From Actinomycetota bacterium (lineage in GTDB: Bacteria > Actinomycetota > Rubrobacteria > Rubrobacterales > Rubrobacteraceae), in the NCBI GenBank assembly GCA_902810695.1, contig CADDYV010000036.1:1-36318 (forward strand): a DNA stretch of 36,318 nucleotides. Reading direction: 5' to 3'. Below, piece after piece: positions 18,730-26,400 of the stretch. Below the pieces are notes generated by a model that saw nothing but the letters and a program-made list of their open reading frames with translations, was not told where the DNA came from and did no database searches. Position 1 is the first letter of the stretch. Every line of letters begins with the position of its first letter. Made by a program: the position numbers and the translations under genes.

Positions 18730-19443
18730 ATGGCAGAGAATGTGAGCTTGCAGGCCAGAGAGCGCGAGGGACGGGGCAAGAACGACGCCCGGCGTCTGAG
18801 AGCTTCCGGGATGGTGCCGGCTGTCCTCTACGCCCACGGGGACGGAGAGGCGAAGGTACTGGCGGTTCCGGCGAAGATCGTGGACCACACCCTCCAGCAT
18901 CTCGGCGACAACGCCCTCTACGACCTGCAGGGGCTCGGTTCCGGGGCTGCGTCTACGGCTCGCGTCGTGGACGTACAGCGCGACCCGGTCAAGGGGCATC
19001 TGATCCACGTGGACTTCGCCCCGGTCATCATGACCGAGCGTATCGAGGTTACCGTGCCGCTGCACGTGGTGGGCGAGGCTCCGGGTGTGAAGGAAGATGA
19101 GGGAGTCTTGCAGCAGGTGCTATACGAGGTACAGGTCGAGTCGCTGCCGGGAGATATCCCGCAGGAGCTTACCCTGGACGTCTCCAGCCTCGGAATGAAC
19201 GAGAACCTCACGCTCGCCGACGTTCAGCTCCCGGAGGGGGTTACCCTGGTCTCCGACCCCGAGGATGTTGCCGTAACGGTTACAGCGCCAACCGAGGTTA
19301 CCGAGGAGGAGATCGAAGCCGCCGGTATCGTCGAGGAGGAGGCCGAGGAAGAGGCCCCCGAGGGCGAGGAGGCCGAGGCCGCAGAGGGTGCCGAAGAGGC
19401 TGCCGCAGCCGAGGAGGAGTCAGAGGAGCAGGAAGGCGAGTAG
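18730..19443 (+). CDS. rplY: 50S ribosomal protein L25, general stress (Ctc) form
   Basis: L25 binds 5S rRNA in the large subunit. The 237-aa protein is the long Ctc type: an N-terminal L25 domain (about residues 1-90) with LQAREREGRGKNDARRLR and the following TL5/Ctc beta domain (about 95-185) with VTVPLHVVGEAPGVKEDEG. The last 50 or so residues are nearly all Glu and Ala, an acidic tail seen in some L25 proteins of halotolerant or thermophilic bacteria. ATG is the start, behind GGGAG. Pth follows after 12 nt; both act on translation. Confidence 0.94.
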   Translation: MAENVSLQAREREGRGKNDARRLRASGMVPAVLYAHGDGEAKVLAVPAKIVDHTLQHLGDNALYDLQGLGSGAASTARVVDVQRDPVKGHLIHVDFAPVIMTERIEVTVPLHVVGEAPGVKEDEGVLQQVLYEVQVESLPGDIPQELTLDVSSLGMNENLTLADVQLPEGVTLVSDPEDVAVTVTAPTEVTEEEIEAAGIVEEEAEEEAPEGEEAEAAEGAEEAAAAEEESEEQEGE

Positions 19444-19455
19444 CGCCGGCCGGGC

Positions 19456-20031
19456 TTGCCTTCGGAGCAGTTCGCCAGCACCTCTGGCGTTACGCCAAAG
19501 GAATATGTGGTTGCGGGGCTCGGCAACCCCGGCCGCTCCTACGCCCGCACCCGGCACAACGCGGGCTTCATGGTCGCCGACGAGTTGGCCCGGCGCCATG
19601 GCGGAAGCTGGCGCCGGAAAAAACGTGCCGAGGTCGCGGAGATATCGCTAGGACCTGCGTCCGCTACACTCCTAAAACCGACCACGTTCATGAACGACTC
19701 CGGAGCGGCGCTCGCTGCTTATAGAGCGGAAGAGTTGATAGTCGTTCACGACGACCTCGACCTCCCTGTAGGAGCGGTGCGGGTCAAGGTCGGCGGCGGA
19801 GCGGGCGGGCACAACGGCCTGCGTTCGATCATCAGCCGCATCGGGCCGGACTTCGTGCGGGTGAGGGTGGGAATCGGACGTCCCCCCATCGGTATGACCG
19901 TAACCGACTACGTACTGAGCCGGATGGAACCGGCGATCAGGGAATCTATCCCCCGCGCGGCGGATGCGGTAGAAGCCGTGATAGAGTCCTCGCCCGAAGC
20001 GGCGATGAACCGGTTTAACGTGCGGGTCTGA
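19456..20031 (+). CDS. pth: Peptidyl-tRNA hydrolase
   Basis: Pth frees tRNA from peptidyl-tRNA dropped by stalled ribosomes. The protein shows AGLGNPGRSYARTRHNAGFMV with the catalytic His, KPTTFMNDSG, VHDDLDLPVG with the catalytic Asp, and GGGAGGHNGLRSI, the full set. It is 191 aa from the TTG at 19456. The first 17 residues are not conserved in the family, and an in-frame GTG at 19507, preceded by AAAGGAA, gives MVAGLGNPG and may be the true start (174 aa). The usual next gene in this cluster is mfd; here a five-gene insert follows. Confidence 0.94.
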   Translation: MPSEQFASTSGVTPKEYVVAGLGNPGRSYARTRHNAGFMVADELARRHGGSWRRKKRAEVAEISLGPASATLLKPTTFMNDSGAALAAYRAEELIVVHDDLDLPVGAVRVKVGGGAGGHNGLRSIISRIGPDFVRVRVGIGRPPIGMTVTDYVLSRMEPAIRESIPRAADAVEAVIESSPEAAMNRFNVRV

Positions 20032-21054
20032 TCAACCCCGAGGTAGCTGGCGGAGCATTCTTCCGAGCATCTCCAGACCGCCCTTGTCGAGGGTGCGGTC
20101 CTCTTCGATTATCTCCAGCCCATCGAGCGCGCCATGCTGCTTGAGCCTGCGGGAGCTTGCTCCCGCGCCCACCCTTGCGGGTCTTCCGTCGGCCTCCGGG
20201 GGCGTGCCCAACTCGCGCAGCCTGCGGGCCATGACGCTGGAGCACACGACGATCGGAACCTTCCCGAGCAGGGCCGTTACCCTGTCCATGCCCTGGTCCT
20301 GATTTACCTCGATGAAGTTCAAATGTTCCAGCCCCGCCCCTTCTAGCGAGCTCGAGAGGTTCTCCATGCACGTCTGCGAACTGCCCACCACGCCCACCCT
20401 GGTCCCCGCGGGAAGCTCCGTGAGGCGCTGCAGGCTCTCCAGCGTCGCCTCGGCCAGAAGCGCCACCGTCTCTATACCATACTGCTCTACGATATCCTGC
20501 ACTTCGTGGACGTGGAAGAAGGTGGTAACCGCAAGTTGCCACGGCAGCTCTTCCTTGCCCGAGACCTTCTCTGCCAGGTTCTCCAGCAGCACACTTTCAA
20601 CCTCTACGGGAAGCTGTTCTTCGAGCTCTCTGGAGAACTGCTCCAGTTCGGGCTGGTTGCACTCGACGAACAGAATGGGGGTTTTCTCCCGCGGCTTCGC
20701 TCCCGCCCTCGCCAGCAGCGCGTACGCTATCTCCTCCACCGTAACGCCCCGCGCCGCCGCGATATCCATCACCCTCTCCAGGACTTCCTGGCGTTCGAGG
20801 TCCTCTTCGACGGTTGGCGGCTCGACCACGTAGACTCCGCTACCCCTGCGACTCTCCACATAGCCCTCCCGCTCTAGCTCCGTGAACACCCGCGCAACCG
20901 TGTTGCGGTTGATCCTCAGGTACCCCGCCAGCTCCCGGATGCTCGGCAACCGGCTTCCCACCTCGAAGTTCCCCGCCAGGATGAGGTGCTTGATCTGCTC
21001 CTTCAACTGGACGTGTACCGGTACGTGACTCTTCGCGTTTATCTGTAGATCCAT
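20032..21054 (-). CDS. GntR family transcriptional regulator with a large uncharacterised C-terminal sensor domain
   Basis: The start chosen is the ATG at 21054 (MDLQINAKSHVPVHVQLK, 340 aa). A longer reading to 21117 would cover the divergent promoter region and is rejected. Residues 1-78 form a GntR winged helix with SRLPSIRELAGYLRINRNTVARVF as recognition part. Residues 100-340 contain a separate domain beginning ILFVECNQPELEQFSRELE, with an alternating beta/alpha pattern (VGVVGSSQTC, VPIVVCSSVMARRL) that looks like a periplasmic-binding-type ligand sensor; I do not recognise a named family. It probably represses the divergently transcribed genes and itself through the repeats at 21066-21119. 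The segment RPARVGAGASSRRLKQHGAL near residue 300 is encoded by palindromic DNA and looks inserted. The ligand is unknown. Confidence 0.85.
   Translation of the reverse strand: MDLQINAKSHVPVHVQLKEQIKHLILAGNFEVGSRLPSIRELAGYLRINRNTVARVFTELEREGYVESRRGSGVYVVEPPTVEEDLERQEVLERVMDIAAARGVTVEEIAYALLARAGAKPREKTPILFVECNQPELEQFSRELEEQLPVEVESVLLENLAEKVSGKEELPWQLAVTTFFHVHEVQDIVEQYGIETVALLAEATLESLQRLTELPAGTRVGVVGSSQTCMENLSSSLEGAGLEHLNFIEVNQDQGMDRVTALLGKVPIVVCSSVMARRLRELGTPPEADGRPARVGAGASSRRLKQHGALDGLEIIEEDRTLDKGGLEMLGRMLRQLPRG
20149..20166. repeat. Perfect 8-bp inverted repeat inside the GntR gene
   Basis: GCGGGAGC, TT, GCTCCCGC reads as a perfect hairpin within the coding sequence. A related direct pair CTCCCGC...GCTCCCGC occurs at 20686-20706 in the same gene, and GGAGCGAAGCTCC at 15086-15098 in rsmA. 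The shared GGAGC core suggests a small dispersed palindromic element, although three short examples can also be chance in GC-rich DNA. Confidence 0.4.
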
Positions 21055-21065
21055 TACAAAATCCC

Positions 21066-21089
21066 TATTGACATATGACACTATGACAA
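21066..21089. promoter_or_regulatory. Tandem operator-like repeats in the GntR divergent region
   Basis: Three near-identical octamers stand head to tail: TATTGACA (21066-21073), TATGACAC (21074-21081) and TATGACAA (21082-21089). They overlap the -35 box and spacer of the divergent promoter and lie 12 nt before the GntR start. GntR regulators commonly bind next to their own gene, so these are probable operator sites, by position only. Confidence 0.5.
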
Positions 21090-21096
21090 CTACAAT
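21068..21096 (+). promoter_or_regulatory. Strong sigma-70 promoter divergent from the GntR gene
   Basis: TTGACA (21068-21073), a 17-nt spacer and TACAAT (21091-21096) form the closest consensus match in the window. It points toward the 49-aa ORF, the GNAT-like gene and possibly the EamA exporter. Its overlap with the TATGACA repeats suggests that it is repressed by the GntR protein. Confidence 0.7.
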
Positions 21097-21119
21097 TATC
21101 CTAATCGGATAGGACAATT
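21094..21119. promoter_or_regulatory. Inverted repeat just downstream of the divergent promoter
   Basis: AATTATCC (21094-21101), 10 nt, and GGACAATT (21112-21119) are inverted copies matching at seven of eight positions. The repeat covers the -10 end and the transcription start of the plus-strand promoter, a typical place for a repressor dimer. Confidence 0.4.
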
Positions 21120-21147
21120 ATAGAACAGAACGAGGAGGTTGTCGGGT

Positions 21148-21297
21148 ATGGGGTATATAGCGGGTATGGAGATCTACCACGAGCGGGAGAGGGAGCTTTT
21201 GCGGGAAGCCGGACAGCGGCGGCTGGCGAAGGAGTTGCGTCGGGGACCGAGGGTGCGCAGGCGCGGGTTTTTATCCGCTCGTCCGGCGGGCTGGTGA
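21148..21297 (+). CDS. Small protein of unknown function (49 aa) under the GntR divergent promoter
   Basis: ATG preceded by GAGGAGG (9 nt spacing) opens a 49-codon frame ending TGA at 21295-21297. The protein begins MGYIAGMEIYHERERELLRE and is very basic in its second half (many Arg), with no membrane segment or cysteine. The strong ribosome-binding site and position about 45 nt after a near-consensus promoter argue for a real gene. It is followed by the GNAT-like gene, so both probably lie on one transcript. I do not recognise the family. Confidence 0.6.
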   Translation: MGYIAGMEIYHERERELLREAGQRRLAKELRRGPRVRRRGFLSARPAGW

Positions 21298-21318
21298 AGC
21301 TGGAGAACGCTTTTGGGC

Positions 21319-21861
21319 ATGGTGCTGAAGAGGAGGACATCGGTGGGCGGTATAGAGGTAAGGTGGTCCCTTCCCGAGGACAGAAACCGGATAGGAGATT
21401 TGCTGGAGATAGGAGACCTGCCGCGCTGGCTGGCTGCCAGGGAGAGCTTTCTCGTCGCCGAGCGAGACGGTGAGATCATAGCGGCGCTCGAGTATCGGAT
21501 GGCTTACGGGCAGCTTGTGCTAGGTATTCTGGTCTCTGATCTGTTCGTGGACCAGCGGGTTGTGGCGAAGGCTCTCTACACCGAGGCGCACGCGATGGCC
21601 TGGGTGACGGGAGTCGAGAAGATAAGGGCCCTGCCCACCATGCAGGGAGAGTATCCCGGAGAGGCCGGGTATAGCTGCTGGAATAGCTGCTGGAGGCTGA
21701 ACGTAACCCGCGCTCCCCGCTCTACCGGGGAACCGTCCAGAGACAACTGGCGCAAACGACTCGACAGGTGGGCCTCACGCGCGCTCTTCTCGCGAGCCTC
21801 CCGGGTTCTGGGGCTTGCGGAACCGCCCTCGCGCAGGACATCGGGCGCAAGATCCGGATAG
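21319..21861 (+). CDS. Divergent GNAT-like (N-acetyltransferase fold) protein
   Basis: ATG at 21319 gives 180 aa; a TTG two codons earlier (21313) is possible. The protein has the order of GNAT proteins: GIEVRWSLPEDRNRIGDLLE, then SFLVAERDGEIIAALEYRMAYGQLVLGILVSDLFV (central beta strands). The usual acetyl-CoA pyrophosphate loop (Q/RxxGxG/A) is not seen; the place reads DQRVVAKALYTEA. It may therefore be an altered or inactive member. The C-terminal 50 residues are Arg- and Ser-rich and look disordered. The ribosome-binding site is weak, so translation may depend on the 49-aa ORF upstream, whose stop lies 21 nt away. Substrate unknown. Confidence 0.6.
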   Translation: MVLKRRTSVGGIEVRWSLPEDRNRIGDLLEIGDLPRWLAARESFLVAERDGEIIAALEYRMAYGQLVLGILVSDLFVDQRVVAKALYTEAHAMAWVTGVEKIRALPTMQGEYPGEAGYSCWNSCWRLNVTRAPRSTGEPSRDNWRKRLDRWASRALFSRASRVLGLAEPPSRRTSGARSG

Positions 21862-21888
21862 TCCTGGATTCTATTGAGAGGTGCTGTT

Positions 21889-21984
21889 TTGAAGGCCAGC
21901 TTGAGGGGAGAAGAGTTCGTGCTGGCGCGAGAACGTTTAAACAGTGAAGGGGGTCGCAGGACCGGGAAAGAGGCGCGGAGTTGA
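21889..21984 (+). CDS. Possible 31-aa leader ORF overlapping the EamA start
   Basis: TTG at 21889, behind GAGAGG, opens a 31-codon frame (MKASLRGEEFVLARER...) whose TGA overlaps the TTG start of the EamA gene (TTGA). The geometry would allow translational coupling. Nothing else supports it, so treat it as a candidate only. Confidence 0.25.
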   Translation: MKASLRGEEFVLARERLNSEGGRRTGKEARS

Positions 21985-22883
21985 GCGCGAAAGACCTGGG
22001 AGCCCTGCTTCTCCTCGGGGCGCTGTGGGGTGGTTCGTACATTTTTATTCGGGTTGCGGTTCCCGAGCTCGGACCGGCCGTTTTGATGGATTTGCGGGTG
22101 CTCGTGGCGGCGGCTGCGCTCATCCTCTACGCGGTGGCTGCCCGGCGCCTGCCCTCGTTCAAGAAACGGTGGAAGAGTTTCGTGGTCCTTGGCGCACTGA
22201 ACGCCGCCCTTCCATTCAGCCTCATAGCTTTCGCGGAGCTGCACGTAACGGCTTCGCTGGCGGCCATCCTGGTTTCCGCCACCCCGCTCTTTGCGGCCTG
22301 CGTCTCCGCGATCTACCTCGACGACGCCCTGACGATCAAAAAGGTTTTGGGCCTGTTGGTAGGGGTTGCCGGAGTTGCGATCACGGTCGGCTGGAGCCCG
22401 GTTCACCTGGGCGGCGCCGTGGCGCTCTCCGTGGCCGCCTTGCTCACTGCCGCACTCTTCTACAGCTTCGGTGGGGTCTACGCCAAGAGAAACTTCGTAG
22501 GATTTCCGCCGCTGACGCTCGCTATCGGCCAGCAGTTGGGGGCGGGTTTGGTGCTGCTGGCGCCCGCCGCCGCGACCCTTCCGGAGCATTTGCCATCCGC
22601 GGGCGCGGCACTTGCAGTAAGCGGGCTGGGGTTGTTATCCACGGCGCTGGCCTACATGCTCTACTTCCGTCTCCTCGACAGCGTGGGACCCACCAGGACC
22701 CTCACCGTTACGTTTCTGACACCCGCGTTCGGGCTCCTCTGGGGAGTCCTCTTTCTGGGCGAGCCGGTAGAGCCAGGGATGGTTCTCGGTTTCGCGGTGA
22801 TCCTCCTGAGCCTCGTGCTCGTGGCCGGTATCGGACCTGGTAAACCGGTATCGAACGCCCGATGCGTGGCCGATGAAGAGTGA
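21981..22883 (+). CDS. EamA family (DMT superfamily) transporter
   Basis: EamA proteins are ten-helix inner-membrane carriers, mostly exporters of amino acids or other metabolites. The 300-aa protein consists of two EamA repeats, with LLLLGALWGGSYIFIRVAV as first helix and LYFRLLDSVGPTRTLTVTFLTPAFGLLWGVLFLGE near the second repeat end, both hallmark stretches. About ten hydrophobic segments can be counted. TTG is the start, with AAAGAGG 7 nt upstream. The gap to the GNAT-like gene is 119 nt, so it may be in the same GntR-controlled unit. Substrate unknown. Confidence 0.88.
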   Translation: MSAKDLGALLLLGALWGGSYIFIRVAVPELGPAVLMDLRVLVAAAALILYAVAARRLPSFKKRWKSFVVLGALNAALPFSLIAFAELHVTASLAAILVSATPLFAACVSAIYLDDALTIKKVLGLLVGVAGVAITVGWSPVHLGGAVALSVAALLTAALFYSFGGVYAKRNFVGFPPLTLAIGQQLGAGLVLLAPAAATLPEHLPSAGAALAVSGLGLLSTALAYMLYFRLLDSVGPTRTLTVTFLTPAFGLLWGVLFLGEPVEPGMVLGFAVILLSLVLVAGIGPGKPVSNARCVADEE

Positions 22884-22898
22884 TTCACGGGGAGCCTG

Positions 22899-23315
22899 CT
22901 AAGAGGTTTTCCGGGGGTAGAGGATCATCTGCGTGCAGCGGAAGAGGGCCAGCGTCTCGCCGCTCTCCTCGTCGCTTACCGTCGCGTCCCAGACTTGCGT
23001 CGTGCGGCCTCCGTGCGCCAGCTTCGCCTCGCACGCTATAGTTCCCCCGCGTCTGGTGCCCAGAAAGTTGCTCTTCAACTCGATGGTGGTGAACCCCCTT
23101 GCTCCCTCGGGGAGGTTGGCGAAAGCCCCGTAGCCGCAGGAGGTATCGGCGAGGGCCACGACCGTCGCCGCGTGCAGGTATCCGTTCGGAGCCAGAAGCT
23201 CCTCTCTGAGCTGCAGGCGGCTGGAGATAGCGCCCGGTTTCACTTCGAGTATCTCGATGCCGATGAGACCCGGCAGGCTTCCGACTCCCAGCTCGTTGAA
23301 ATCCTCTGGCAACAA
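22899..23315 (-). CDS. PaaI-type hotdog-fold thioesterase
   Basis: Hotdog thioesterases hydrolyse acyl-CoA thioesters in the cytoplasm. The 138-aa protein reads MLPEDFNELGVGSLPGLIGIEIL, then LLAPNGYLHAATVVALADTSCGYGAF, the active-site helix region of the PaaI/YdiI group with its Asp in ADTS, then the dimer strands FTTIELKSNFLG and TTQVWDATVSDE. The start TTG at 23315 is chosen because AGAAAGG lies 7 nt upstream on the minus strand. The open frame continues much further up but would run under mfd. It is divergent from mfd with about 108 nt between. The substrate is not known; phenylacetyl-CoA or menaquinone-type intermediates are handled by relatives. Confidence 0.85.
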   Translation of the reverse strand: MLPEDFNELGVGSLPGLIGIEILEVKPGAISSRLQLREELLAPNGYLHAATVVALADTSCGYGAFANLPEGARGFTTIELKSNFLGTRRGGTIACEAKLAHGGRTTQVWDATVSDEESGETLALFRCTQMILYPRKTS

Positions 23316-23389
23316 CGCCAAACCTTTCTTCTCGGGTACGTACGAGTTGATTCTCTCGCAAAAGCTCGGGTTTCGGGGAGTGTCATACG

Positions 23390-23417
23390 TTGGAACCGGC
23401 CCGGAAGGCGTTAAAAT
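23390..23417 (+). promoter_or_regulatory. Promoter of a probably leaderless mfd transcript
   Basis: TTGGAA (23390-23395), 16 nt, and TAAAAT (23412-23417) form a fair promoter. The mfd GTG is at 23424, 6 nt after the -10 box, exactly where transcription should start, and no ribosome-binding site is found at normal spacing. Confidence 0.55.
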
Positions 23418-23423
23418 TAGCAA

Positions 23424-26400
23424 GTGCCAGATAGAGTCACCTCTCTTCTCAAAGCTCCCCGCCGCATACGCGCATACCTCGCCGCAACCGCCGATAAGCC
23501 GGTAGTGCTGCTCGCCGCAACCGAAGAGGCAGCCGAGCGTTACGCCCGCGACGCCGCGTGCTTCACCGGCGGAGCGGTAGTTTATCTCCCATCGCGCGGT
23601 CCCGCCTACGGAGACGTTTTCGACCCGCCCGTCGCCACCGTCGGGCGCAGGCAGCGGGCGCTTCACGCTCTGAATTCGGCGCGCGTGGTGGTTGCGGGGC
23701 CGCTCGCTTTCTCGGAGAAGACGCCGCTCTACGAGCCGCTGGAGCTTTCGGGCGGGGCGGAGCTGGAGTTCGACGTTGCTCTCGAAAGGCTGGTCGGGCT
23801 GGGTTACGAGCGGGTGGACAGGATTTCGCGACCCGGAGAATTCACGGTGCGAGGTGGGATCGTGGACCTGTTCCCGAGCACCCGCCGCTCGCCGGTGCGC
23901 GTCGAGTGGTGGGGAGATGAGATCGAGAACGTCCGCGCGGTCTCTTTAGCTACCCAGAGGGCGGTAAAGGACCTCCCGACCGTTACGGTCTACGCCGCCC
24001 GCGAGGGCGACCTTGCTGCTCTTGCGGCCACGAGCGGTGAGGATCTCCCGGAGGAAGCGCGGCGCGGCGTGCGCGTGCCCGGACTCGACCGGTTGCTCCT
24101 GGGGTTGAACCCCGTATCTCCGCGCGAGCTTGTCGCGGAGGAGGCCCGGATCTGGCGTGAAGAGCCGCAGGAGGATATCCCGGAGGAAGTGGAGGAGCTG
24201 GTCCGGGAGCTCTACGAGCCGGAGCCACCGGAGCCGGATGTCGAGTTCACCGGCGGCGAGGAGGGCGCGGTCGTCTCCGCTCCCCCGGTCGTGGCGTTCT
24301 CCGGCTCCATCCGGGAGGCTGGCCGGAGGCTTGCGGCGCTCGCGGAAGACGGGCTCGCGGTGTTCATCGCCTGCGGTTCGGGCAGCGAGGTGAAGCGGAC
24401 GGCCTACGCCCTGGGCCAGATAAACCGCGAGGTGAGAGAGGCCGAGCACGCCGTTGCGGGCCTGCCGCCCGGCCTCTACGCGGTACCCGGTGAGGTGGAA
24501 GAAGGGTTCACCTACCCCGAAGACGGCATCGCAGTCATCCGCCGGGATGAGCTTTTCGGACACAGGAGGCGTGCCGCGCGCCGCAGGGCGGGCAGGACCT
24601 TCGCTTCTTTTGCGGACCTCAAGGCCGGGGACCTCGTGGTGCACGAGACGCAGGGGATAGGGCGCTTCGAGGGGCTCGTATCGAGAGAAGTTCTCGGCAC
24701 GACCAGGGACTACATGGAGGTCAGCTATCGGGGCGGCGATACGCTGTTTGTGCCCTACGAGCAGATGGAGCTTCTGCACAAGTACATCGGCGGCGAGGGC
24801 GCGCGGCTGGACAGGCTCGGGGGAAGCTCTTGGGCGCAGGTTACGGACCGGGTGCGCAGGCGGGTCAAGGCGCTCGCCGGGGAGCTTCTGCGGTTGCACA
24901 TCGTGCGGGCCTCCGCCGAGGGGTTCGCCTTCCCCGGAGACTCGGAGTGGGAGCGGGAGCTGGAGGAGAGCTTCCCCTACCAGGAGACCCCGGACCAGGA
25001 GGCGGCCATCATGGCGGTCAAGGAGGACATGCAGAGGCCGCACCCGATGGACCGGCTGGTGTGCGGGGATGTGGGCTTCGGGAAAACCGAGGTGGCGGTG
25101 CGCGCGGCGTTCAAGGCGGCCTTGAGCGGGAAGCAGACCATGATGCTCGCCCCGACCACCATCCTCGTCCAGCAGCATCTGCGCACCTTCCGCGAGAGGC
25201 TGGACCGCTTCGCCGTGAGGGTAGAGAGTCTCTCGCGTTTCTCCACCCCCGCCGAGCGCGAGCGCATCCTGAAGGCCTTCGCATCTGGCGAGGTGGACGT
25301 GCTCATCGGGACGCACGCCATCTTGAGCTCGGATGTAACGCCGAAGGACCTCGGGCTCGTCGTGGTGGACGAGGAGCAGCGCTTCGGCGTCAGGCACAAG
25401 GAGCGCATCAAGCAGCTCAAAACGTCGGTGGATGTGCTGACGCTCACGGCGACCCCCATCCCGCGCACGATGCAGATGGGGCTCGCGGAGCTGCGGGACA
25501 TAAGCGTTATAGAGACCCCGCCTACCGGCAGGCGCAGCATCCTGACGCACGTGGGGCCTTACGACGAAGAACTGGTCAAGCAGGCCATCGAGCGGGAGGT
25601 CGCGCGCGGTGGGCAGACCTTCTTCGTCCACAACCGCGTCGAGACGATAGACGAGGTGGCCGAGAGGCTCAGGGCTCTGGTACCGGGGGGGCGGTTCGCG
25701 GTGGCGCACGGGCAGTTGCCCGAGAGGGCGCTGGAGAGCACGATGCGGCGCTTTCTCGACGGGGAGGCCGATGTTCTGGTTACGACGACCATCGTGGAGA
25801 GCGGGCTGGACGTGGGGACGGCGAACACCCTGATCGTGGACCGCGCCGACGCGATGGGCCTCGCCCAGCTCTACCAGCTACGCGGCAGGATCGGGCGCTC
25901 CACCGAGCAGGCCTACGCCTACCTGTTCGCGCCGCTTGGGGCCACCCTGGAGTCGCAGAAACGCCTCGAAGCCCTGATGGACTTCACCGAGCTCGGAAGC
26001 GGGTTCGCCATCGCGATGCGCGACCTGGAGATCCGGGGTGCGGGGAACCTGCTCGGCGCGGAGCAGTCGGGCCACATAGCGGCGGTGGGCTTCGAGATGT
26101 ACCTGCGGCTCCTCGAAGAAGCCGTCGCCCAGGCCAGGGGAGAAGAACCGGAGCGCCGCGAAGAGCGCCCGGTCATCGTCGAGCTGCCGATGGACGCCTA
26201 TCTGCCGCCTTCCTACGTGCAGGATGAGATCGAGCGCGTAGACCTCTACCGCCGGGCATCGGGGGCGAAGACGCTCGCGGAGGTGGACGACCTCGCGGAG
26301 GAGCTTGCAGAACGCTTCGGGGAGCCGCCGGAGCCCACCCTGAACCTGCTCGGCCTCACCCGGATAAAGATCCTGGCGCGGGAGATCGGGGCGAGCTCCA

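Follow-up and report, generated by a model that had tools for sequence, protein, structure and literature searches.

What does a GntR-type regulator control when it stands, with a short set of divergent genes, between pth and mfd? The question arises from a 36,318-nucleotide stretch of DNA (contig CADDYV010000036.1, positions 1 to 36,318; hereafter the window) from a member of the Rubrobacteraceae, a relative of the desert bacterium Rubrobacter, with an assembly of 3.59 Mb in 148 contigs. The locus (20032–22883) is flanked by pth (19456–20031) and by a hotdog thioesterase/mfd pair; pth and the regulator gene, gntR, are convergent, and their stop codons abut. An earlier note on this DNA had held that pth usually leads toward mfd in related actinomycetes, and in 9 of 12 other genomes of the phylum pth is indeed found on the same strand as mfd and upstream of it; in 8 of them the distance is no more than about 1.1 kb. 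From comparison across genomes we consider it probable that the window carries a reduced form of a Rubrobacteraceae divergon in which a dedicated, autoregulated, ligand-responsive repressor governs a small export unit. What had been a guess from gene arrangement becomes a testable regulator–operator pair, with a 20-bp site that occurs at essentially one locus per genome and that two phyla share.

A palindromic operator at gntR

Upstream of gntR, in an alignment of 28 loci, about 60 bp are 76–81% identical, compared with 49% for the leader and the first part of the gene that follows. The conserved block consists of two palindromes with the consensus TGTCCTA-N6-TAGGACA (general form TGTNNTA-N6-TANNACA), usually 28 bp apart, and in many loci an overlapping third half-site lies upstream of both. 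In the window the two putative operators are O1 (21069–21088; TGACATA-N6-TATGACA), which keeps 11 of the 14 bases of the family consensus, and O2 (21097–21116; TATCCTA-N6-TAGGACA), which keeps 13; the third half-site is represented by a degenerate TCCCTA upstream of O1 (21062–21067, forward strand), where most relatives have TATCCTA or TGTCCTA. Neither consensus score was reached by any of 300 composition shuffles, a test biased in favor because the consensus was taken from the same family. The TATGACA-type repeats reported in the earlier note do not form an independent family: they are half-sites of O1, and the direct TATGACA repeat was seen in this genome only.

The predicted promoter of the divergent unit, TTGACA-17-TACAAT on the forward strand (21068–21096; −35 at 21068–21073, −10 at 21091–21096), is exactly as the earlier note gave it, with 0.28 matches of two or fewer mismatches expected per window. 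In relatives the promoter is mostly TTGTCC-17-TATAAT; with TTGACA as its −35 hexamer, the window has a promoter nearer consensus and a weaker O1. O1 covers the −35 hexamer and the spacer, O2 begins immediately past the −10 hexamer, and the gntR start codon lies about 15 bp from O1.

A model of the operator region built from sequence only found the locus in 29 of 39 genomes of the family, always at gntR. The exceptions to one operator locus per genome were G027, which has two gntR copies and two operators, and G021, in which the match is weak and partial (E 0.064); in the genome of the window, O2 is the sole place that fits the palindrome pattern with up to two mismatches. In five of five Rokubacteria this palindrome stands ahead of either gntR or its small leader open reading frame (ORF), as TGTCATA-N6-TAGGACA at two loci and (T/C)GTACTA-N6-TAGTACA at three, with the length and spacing found in Rubrobacteraceae. 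The exact site of one of them (L137) had no match in 200 shuffles, and bacterium HR32 carries a similar TTGTCACA-N7-TGTGACAA just ahead of gntR. The GT-Nx-AC half-sites of the palindromes, present in the 28 loci and the five Rokubacteria, are like those of the GntR operator consensus, and YtrA operators likewise carry GT and AC far from the center (both reviewed in PMC4494728). These comparisons strongly support a link between regulator and operator, and because the palindrome recurs ahead of gntR in a second phylum, autoregulation through it appears to be the best-supported step of the mechanism proposed below.

A wider regulon was considered and set aside: in the searched genomes neither the operator model nor the palindrome pattern yielded a further convincing site, and two isolated two-mismatch matches to the pattern occurred in G016 and G020. 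At four of the Rokubacteria loci (L136, L138, L139, L140) an ORF of about 70 codons sits between operator and gntR; as a homolog of the 49-aa module described in the last section it scored no better than shuffled decoys.

The regulator and its sensor domain

The regulator (20032–21054, reverse strand; ATG at 21054, stop at 20032–20034) has 340 residues, and the earlier description of a GntR protein with a large unfamiliar sensor fits it well: an N-terminal winged helix-turn-helix (wHTH; PF00392, 59.1 bits against a cut-off of 27) precedes about 250 residues that match no Pfam family. In a fold search the wHTH matched the DNA-binding domain of YvoA with a Z of 15.2 and 1.0 Å over 79 residues. 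Orthologs in the alignment are 61–75% identical, and the most divergent copy is 50% identical. The wHTH most resembles those of the YtrA and MocR subfamilies, and the best NCBIfam scores fall to MocR-type models on account of this common part, but the α/β C-terminus is unlike both, with neither the two-helix part of about 50 residues that characterizes YtrA nor the aminotransferase domain of MocR, for which Pfam gave no match; nor did Pfam match, in any of the 29 members, an all-helical FCD domain or a UTRA domain, the C-terminal domains of the FadR and HutC subfamilies.

Since a full-length fold search was swamped by matches to the helix-turn-helix, the sensor domain was modeled by itself from 29 sequences (pLDDT 88, pTM 0.73). 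The model is an alternating α/β domain of about 220 residues, predicted to have a periplasmic-binding-protein-like fold that comes closest to the N-terminal domain of PrpR (2pju; Z 10.4, 4.9 Å, 176 residues aligned at 14% identity) and is also like the related 2q5c; LacI repressors and ribose-binding-type proteins follow at Z 8–9. Residues E131, C132, T177, T178, F179, H181, E184, N232, S236, and R320 are invariant in both phyla. Together, this predicted fold and these invariant residues support a ligand-responsive regulator, and it is natural to infer that the domain binds a small metabolite. When the sensor-domain alignment was compared with 84,980 species genomes, relatives beyond the family were confined to Rokubacteria and bacterium HR32.

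PrpR itself is a σ54 activator of another architecture, and Pfam gave no match for the domain here. Another parallel is AraR of Bacillus subtilis, of a minor GntR subfamily, whose sensor is LacI-like. AraR and the present regulator share a GntR-type wHTH and palindromic operators, and the sensor joined to the wHTH here may likewise be of LacI or periplasmic-binding type; they differ in that the sensor here is shorter, matches LacI-type folds without any sequence match, goes unrecognized by Pfam, and has the PrpR N-terminal domain as its nearest fold, and in that the gene context is another. PMC4494728 describes four main GntR subfamilies, and this sensor domain matches none of them. The domain points to an uncharacterized type of GntR sensor, and both it and the gene combination look undescribed, although the parts are of known kinds.

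TusA was discarded as a relative of the sensor domain; a weak match in 12 of the 29 members was judged spurious. The sensor domain also contains an insertion of some 25 residues (residues ~286–312; ~20110–20200 in the window), which was modeled with low confidence and is partly matched in L032 and L033 alone.

Export genes, repair genes, and competing explanations

Comparing gene neighborhoods, as the earlier note had proposed, placed the locus in a family-wide pattern. The full Rubrobacteraceae order runs from pth to the convergent gntR and then, divergently, through the GNAT-like gene (gnat), azlC, azlD, either ada and ogt or an ECF sigma factor gene with a fusion of Ogt to the Ada zinc-binding domain, and eamA, ending with the hotdog gene, which faces eamA, and mfd. 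Only gnat and eamA are kept in the window, and no AzlC was found in its genome. The insert, which the earlier note put forward as an undescribed small system, is not private to this genome: most Rubrobacteraceae genomes examined carry the unit between pth and mfd, several relatives have none there, and the version in the window has lost genes. The gntR and gnat genes are divergent neighbors in 25 of 30 gntR loci of relatives. In 18 loci eamA comes after them, and in several of the remaining ones a contig end interrupts the locus. A lack of such association among relatives would have refuted the earlier note by its own criterion, and the association holds. The transporter gene of the window (21981–22883, forward strand) encodes the EamA/DMT-family exporter named in the earlier note (PF00892, 126.7 bits in two stretches), and the orthologs in those 18 loci lie downstream of gnat. 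Elsewhere a LysE-type exporter occupies the interval and eamA is absent (G013), or a gnat gene of 74% identity, with no gntR, has a LysE exporter and a regulator of Lrp type as neighbors (G001). The conserved exporters support the label of efflux unit that the earlier note had applied; its further suggestion, a modifying enzyme, fares differently (see below).

We propose that the GntR-type regulator, with its predicted periplasmic-binding-protein-like metabolite sensor, similar to the PrpR N-terminal domain, would bind the two palindromes that overlap the divergent promoter and would thereby repress both the unit from gnat to eamA and its own gene. Occupation of the sensor domain by a small metabolite would free the operator and induce export, presumably by EamA in the window and, in relatives, by AzlCD, EamA, or both, usually together with O6-alkylguanine repair enzymes. 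The positions of O1 over and O2 directly past the promoter hexamers favor repression; that the regulator is instead a GabR-like activator of the divergent unit is very unlikely, since sites so placed would obstruct RNA polymerase and the protein has no aminotransferase domain. In favor of an activator, the protein scores best with the MocR-type models of NCBIfam, owing to the wHTH they have in common, and GabR is described as both autorepressor and activator.

Four observations weigh against a dedicated repressor of export. Searched singly and without the consensus, the sequences gave no significant palindrome (median p 0.59), so that the evidence for the operator lies in its conservation. The window has a weakened O1. 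The sensor domain had no convincing sequence relative in Pfam or the Protein Data Bank, its likeness to others being one of fold only. Finally, in G009 and G015 gntR and its operator stand beside the gene of a short membrane protein, and not beside gnat and eamA, so export is not an invariable partner of the regulator.

Azl-type operons offer a parallel to the export genes: the azlBCD-type operons of B. subtilis are amino-acid exporter operons with an Lrp-type regulator, and there, as here, small exporter genes adjoin their regulator. The present unit differs in its GntR-type regulator, its GNAT-like partner, the alkyltransferases found in relatives, and the loss of AzlCD from the genome of the window. 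GntR regulators beside exporters are ordinary. In 19 loci of relatives gnat and eamA have an alkyltransferase gene between them, two unrelated repair modules filling the same slot, and this recurrence suggests that the compound exported in relatives, or its precursor, may be genotoxic. The ancestral unit might have been a response to DNA-alkylating, amino-acid-like compounds, in which exporters clear the compound while its lesions are repaired by Ada/AlkA/Ogt or by the ECF-sigma/Ogt-Ada pair, and the window would hold an export-only remnant. We regard this as possible but doubtful. It agrees with the coding overlaps that join ada, ogt, and eamA in L037, with the conserved active-site PCHR and zinc cysteines of the Ogt-Ada fusion, and with the membership of AzlCD and LysE in amino-acid exporter families; on the other side, its support is one of co-location, G004 has azlCD and eamA and no alkyltransferase, the only MGMT-domain gene in the genome of the window belongs to an ECF/Ogt-Ada pair on another contig, and our literature search found nothing on such a response. 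Equally tentative is the broader proposal of a new GntR subfamily, defined by the wHTH, the PrpR-like sensor, and the shared operator in Rubrobacteraceae and Rokubacteria, that would control, in Rubrobacteraceae, exporters of an amino-acid-like genotoxic metabolite co-expressed with DNA-adduct repair, the lineage of the window having kept export only. The recurring tie of metabolite export to direct repair of alkylated DNA is of interest in a stress-tolerant lineage.

Alternatively, the regulator might govern only itself and the GNAT-like gene, with azlCD, the repair genes, and eamA as passengers that have promoters of their own. The GNAT-like gene is indeed the most constant neighbor, the genes behind it vary, and a second operator ahead of eamA was not found. 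We hold this to be unlikely: the genes from gnat to eamA share one orientation and either overlap or are separated by short gaps; in one locus (G060) that has lost the GNAT core, azlCD comes next past the operator; and the unit stays together at other chromosomal places. It is situated away from pth in G007, G018, G024, and G021 (no pth was found in G012), and its cohesion there indicates that it holds as a unit.

The split GNAT-like gene and further observations

Between the operators and eamA the window holds two small ORFs on the forward strand. The first (21148–21297; coding 21148–21294) specifies the 49-aa protein of the earlier note, and the second (21343–21861) a GNAT-like core of 172 residues that starts at GTG 21343. 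The ORF of 49 codons exists as reported, yet it is not a separate original gene: the two share a frame and are parted by a TGA (21295–21297), and in most relatives the frame is unbroken and encodes one protein of about 195 residues, in which an N-terminal helical module (consensus ELARERREELLREAEERRLAR) precedes the GNAT-like core. The TGA may be a sequencing error, this being one draft genome. The split may also be tolerated, because the core has its own Shine-Dalgarno sequence (GAGGAGG, 21330–21336) and a start that matches that of the module-less relatives L048 and L051. In G060 the module alone remains.

A Pfam scan of the locus placed only the GntR wHTH and EamA above cut-off, and neither small protein had such a match; the GNAT-like protein of the window scored 13.0 bits against the GNAT model, below the cut-off of 20.7, and E values of at most 1 against PF00583 were obtained for 12 of 16 members, the best being 2.5e-4. 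By inspection, the acetyl-CoA loop (R/Q-x-x-G-x-G/A) is absent from all 16 aligned members, which extends what the earlier note had observed for this one protein. For this reason we do not call the protein a modifying enzyme, and the modifier drops out of the proposed efflux unit; the GNAT-like protein is probably a non-catalytic accessory.

No known RNA element was detected at gathering thresholds in 19000–24000. Within the literature searched, nothing turned up on this gene cluster or combination, and no paper brought together ECF sigma factors and Ada with alkylation and methylguanine.

In relatives the unit is completed by azlCD and alkylation-repair genes, which could not have been seen from the sequence of the window by itself. 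An ECF sigma gene followed by an Ogt-Ada fusion of about 260 residues occurs at G000:C6 (L111 7156–8556) and in L040, L043, L044, L045, L047, and L057; the fusion comprises an Ogt-type alkyltransferase domain with PCHR and, at the C-terminus, an Ada zinc-binding domain that keeps its cysteines, and the two genes form a candidate alkylation-responsive sigma pair. At L055 and L056, the loci of G015 and G009, the protein that replaces gnat has 53–68 residues with one likely membrane segment and is encoded divergently from gntR, on which a lactate-permease-like gene (named by inspection only) converges. In G026, remnants of a deleted gntR lie between pth and gnat (L106 3753–3880), no operator was found at that locus, and gnat, ada, ogt, and eamA are still present.

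The helical module recurs in short ORFs elsewhere in the genome of the window (C15 12756–12866, C51 1422–1541, C25 5324–5437, C86 4841–4951, and C100 4383–4472), where it is commoner in such ORFs than in the seven relatives searched. A second copy of the fused module and GNAT-like core lies in the same genome at C39 32438–32968 (L104), with no gntR adjoining it.

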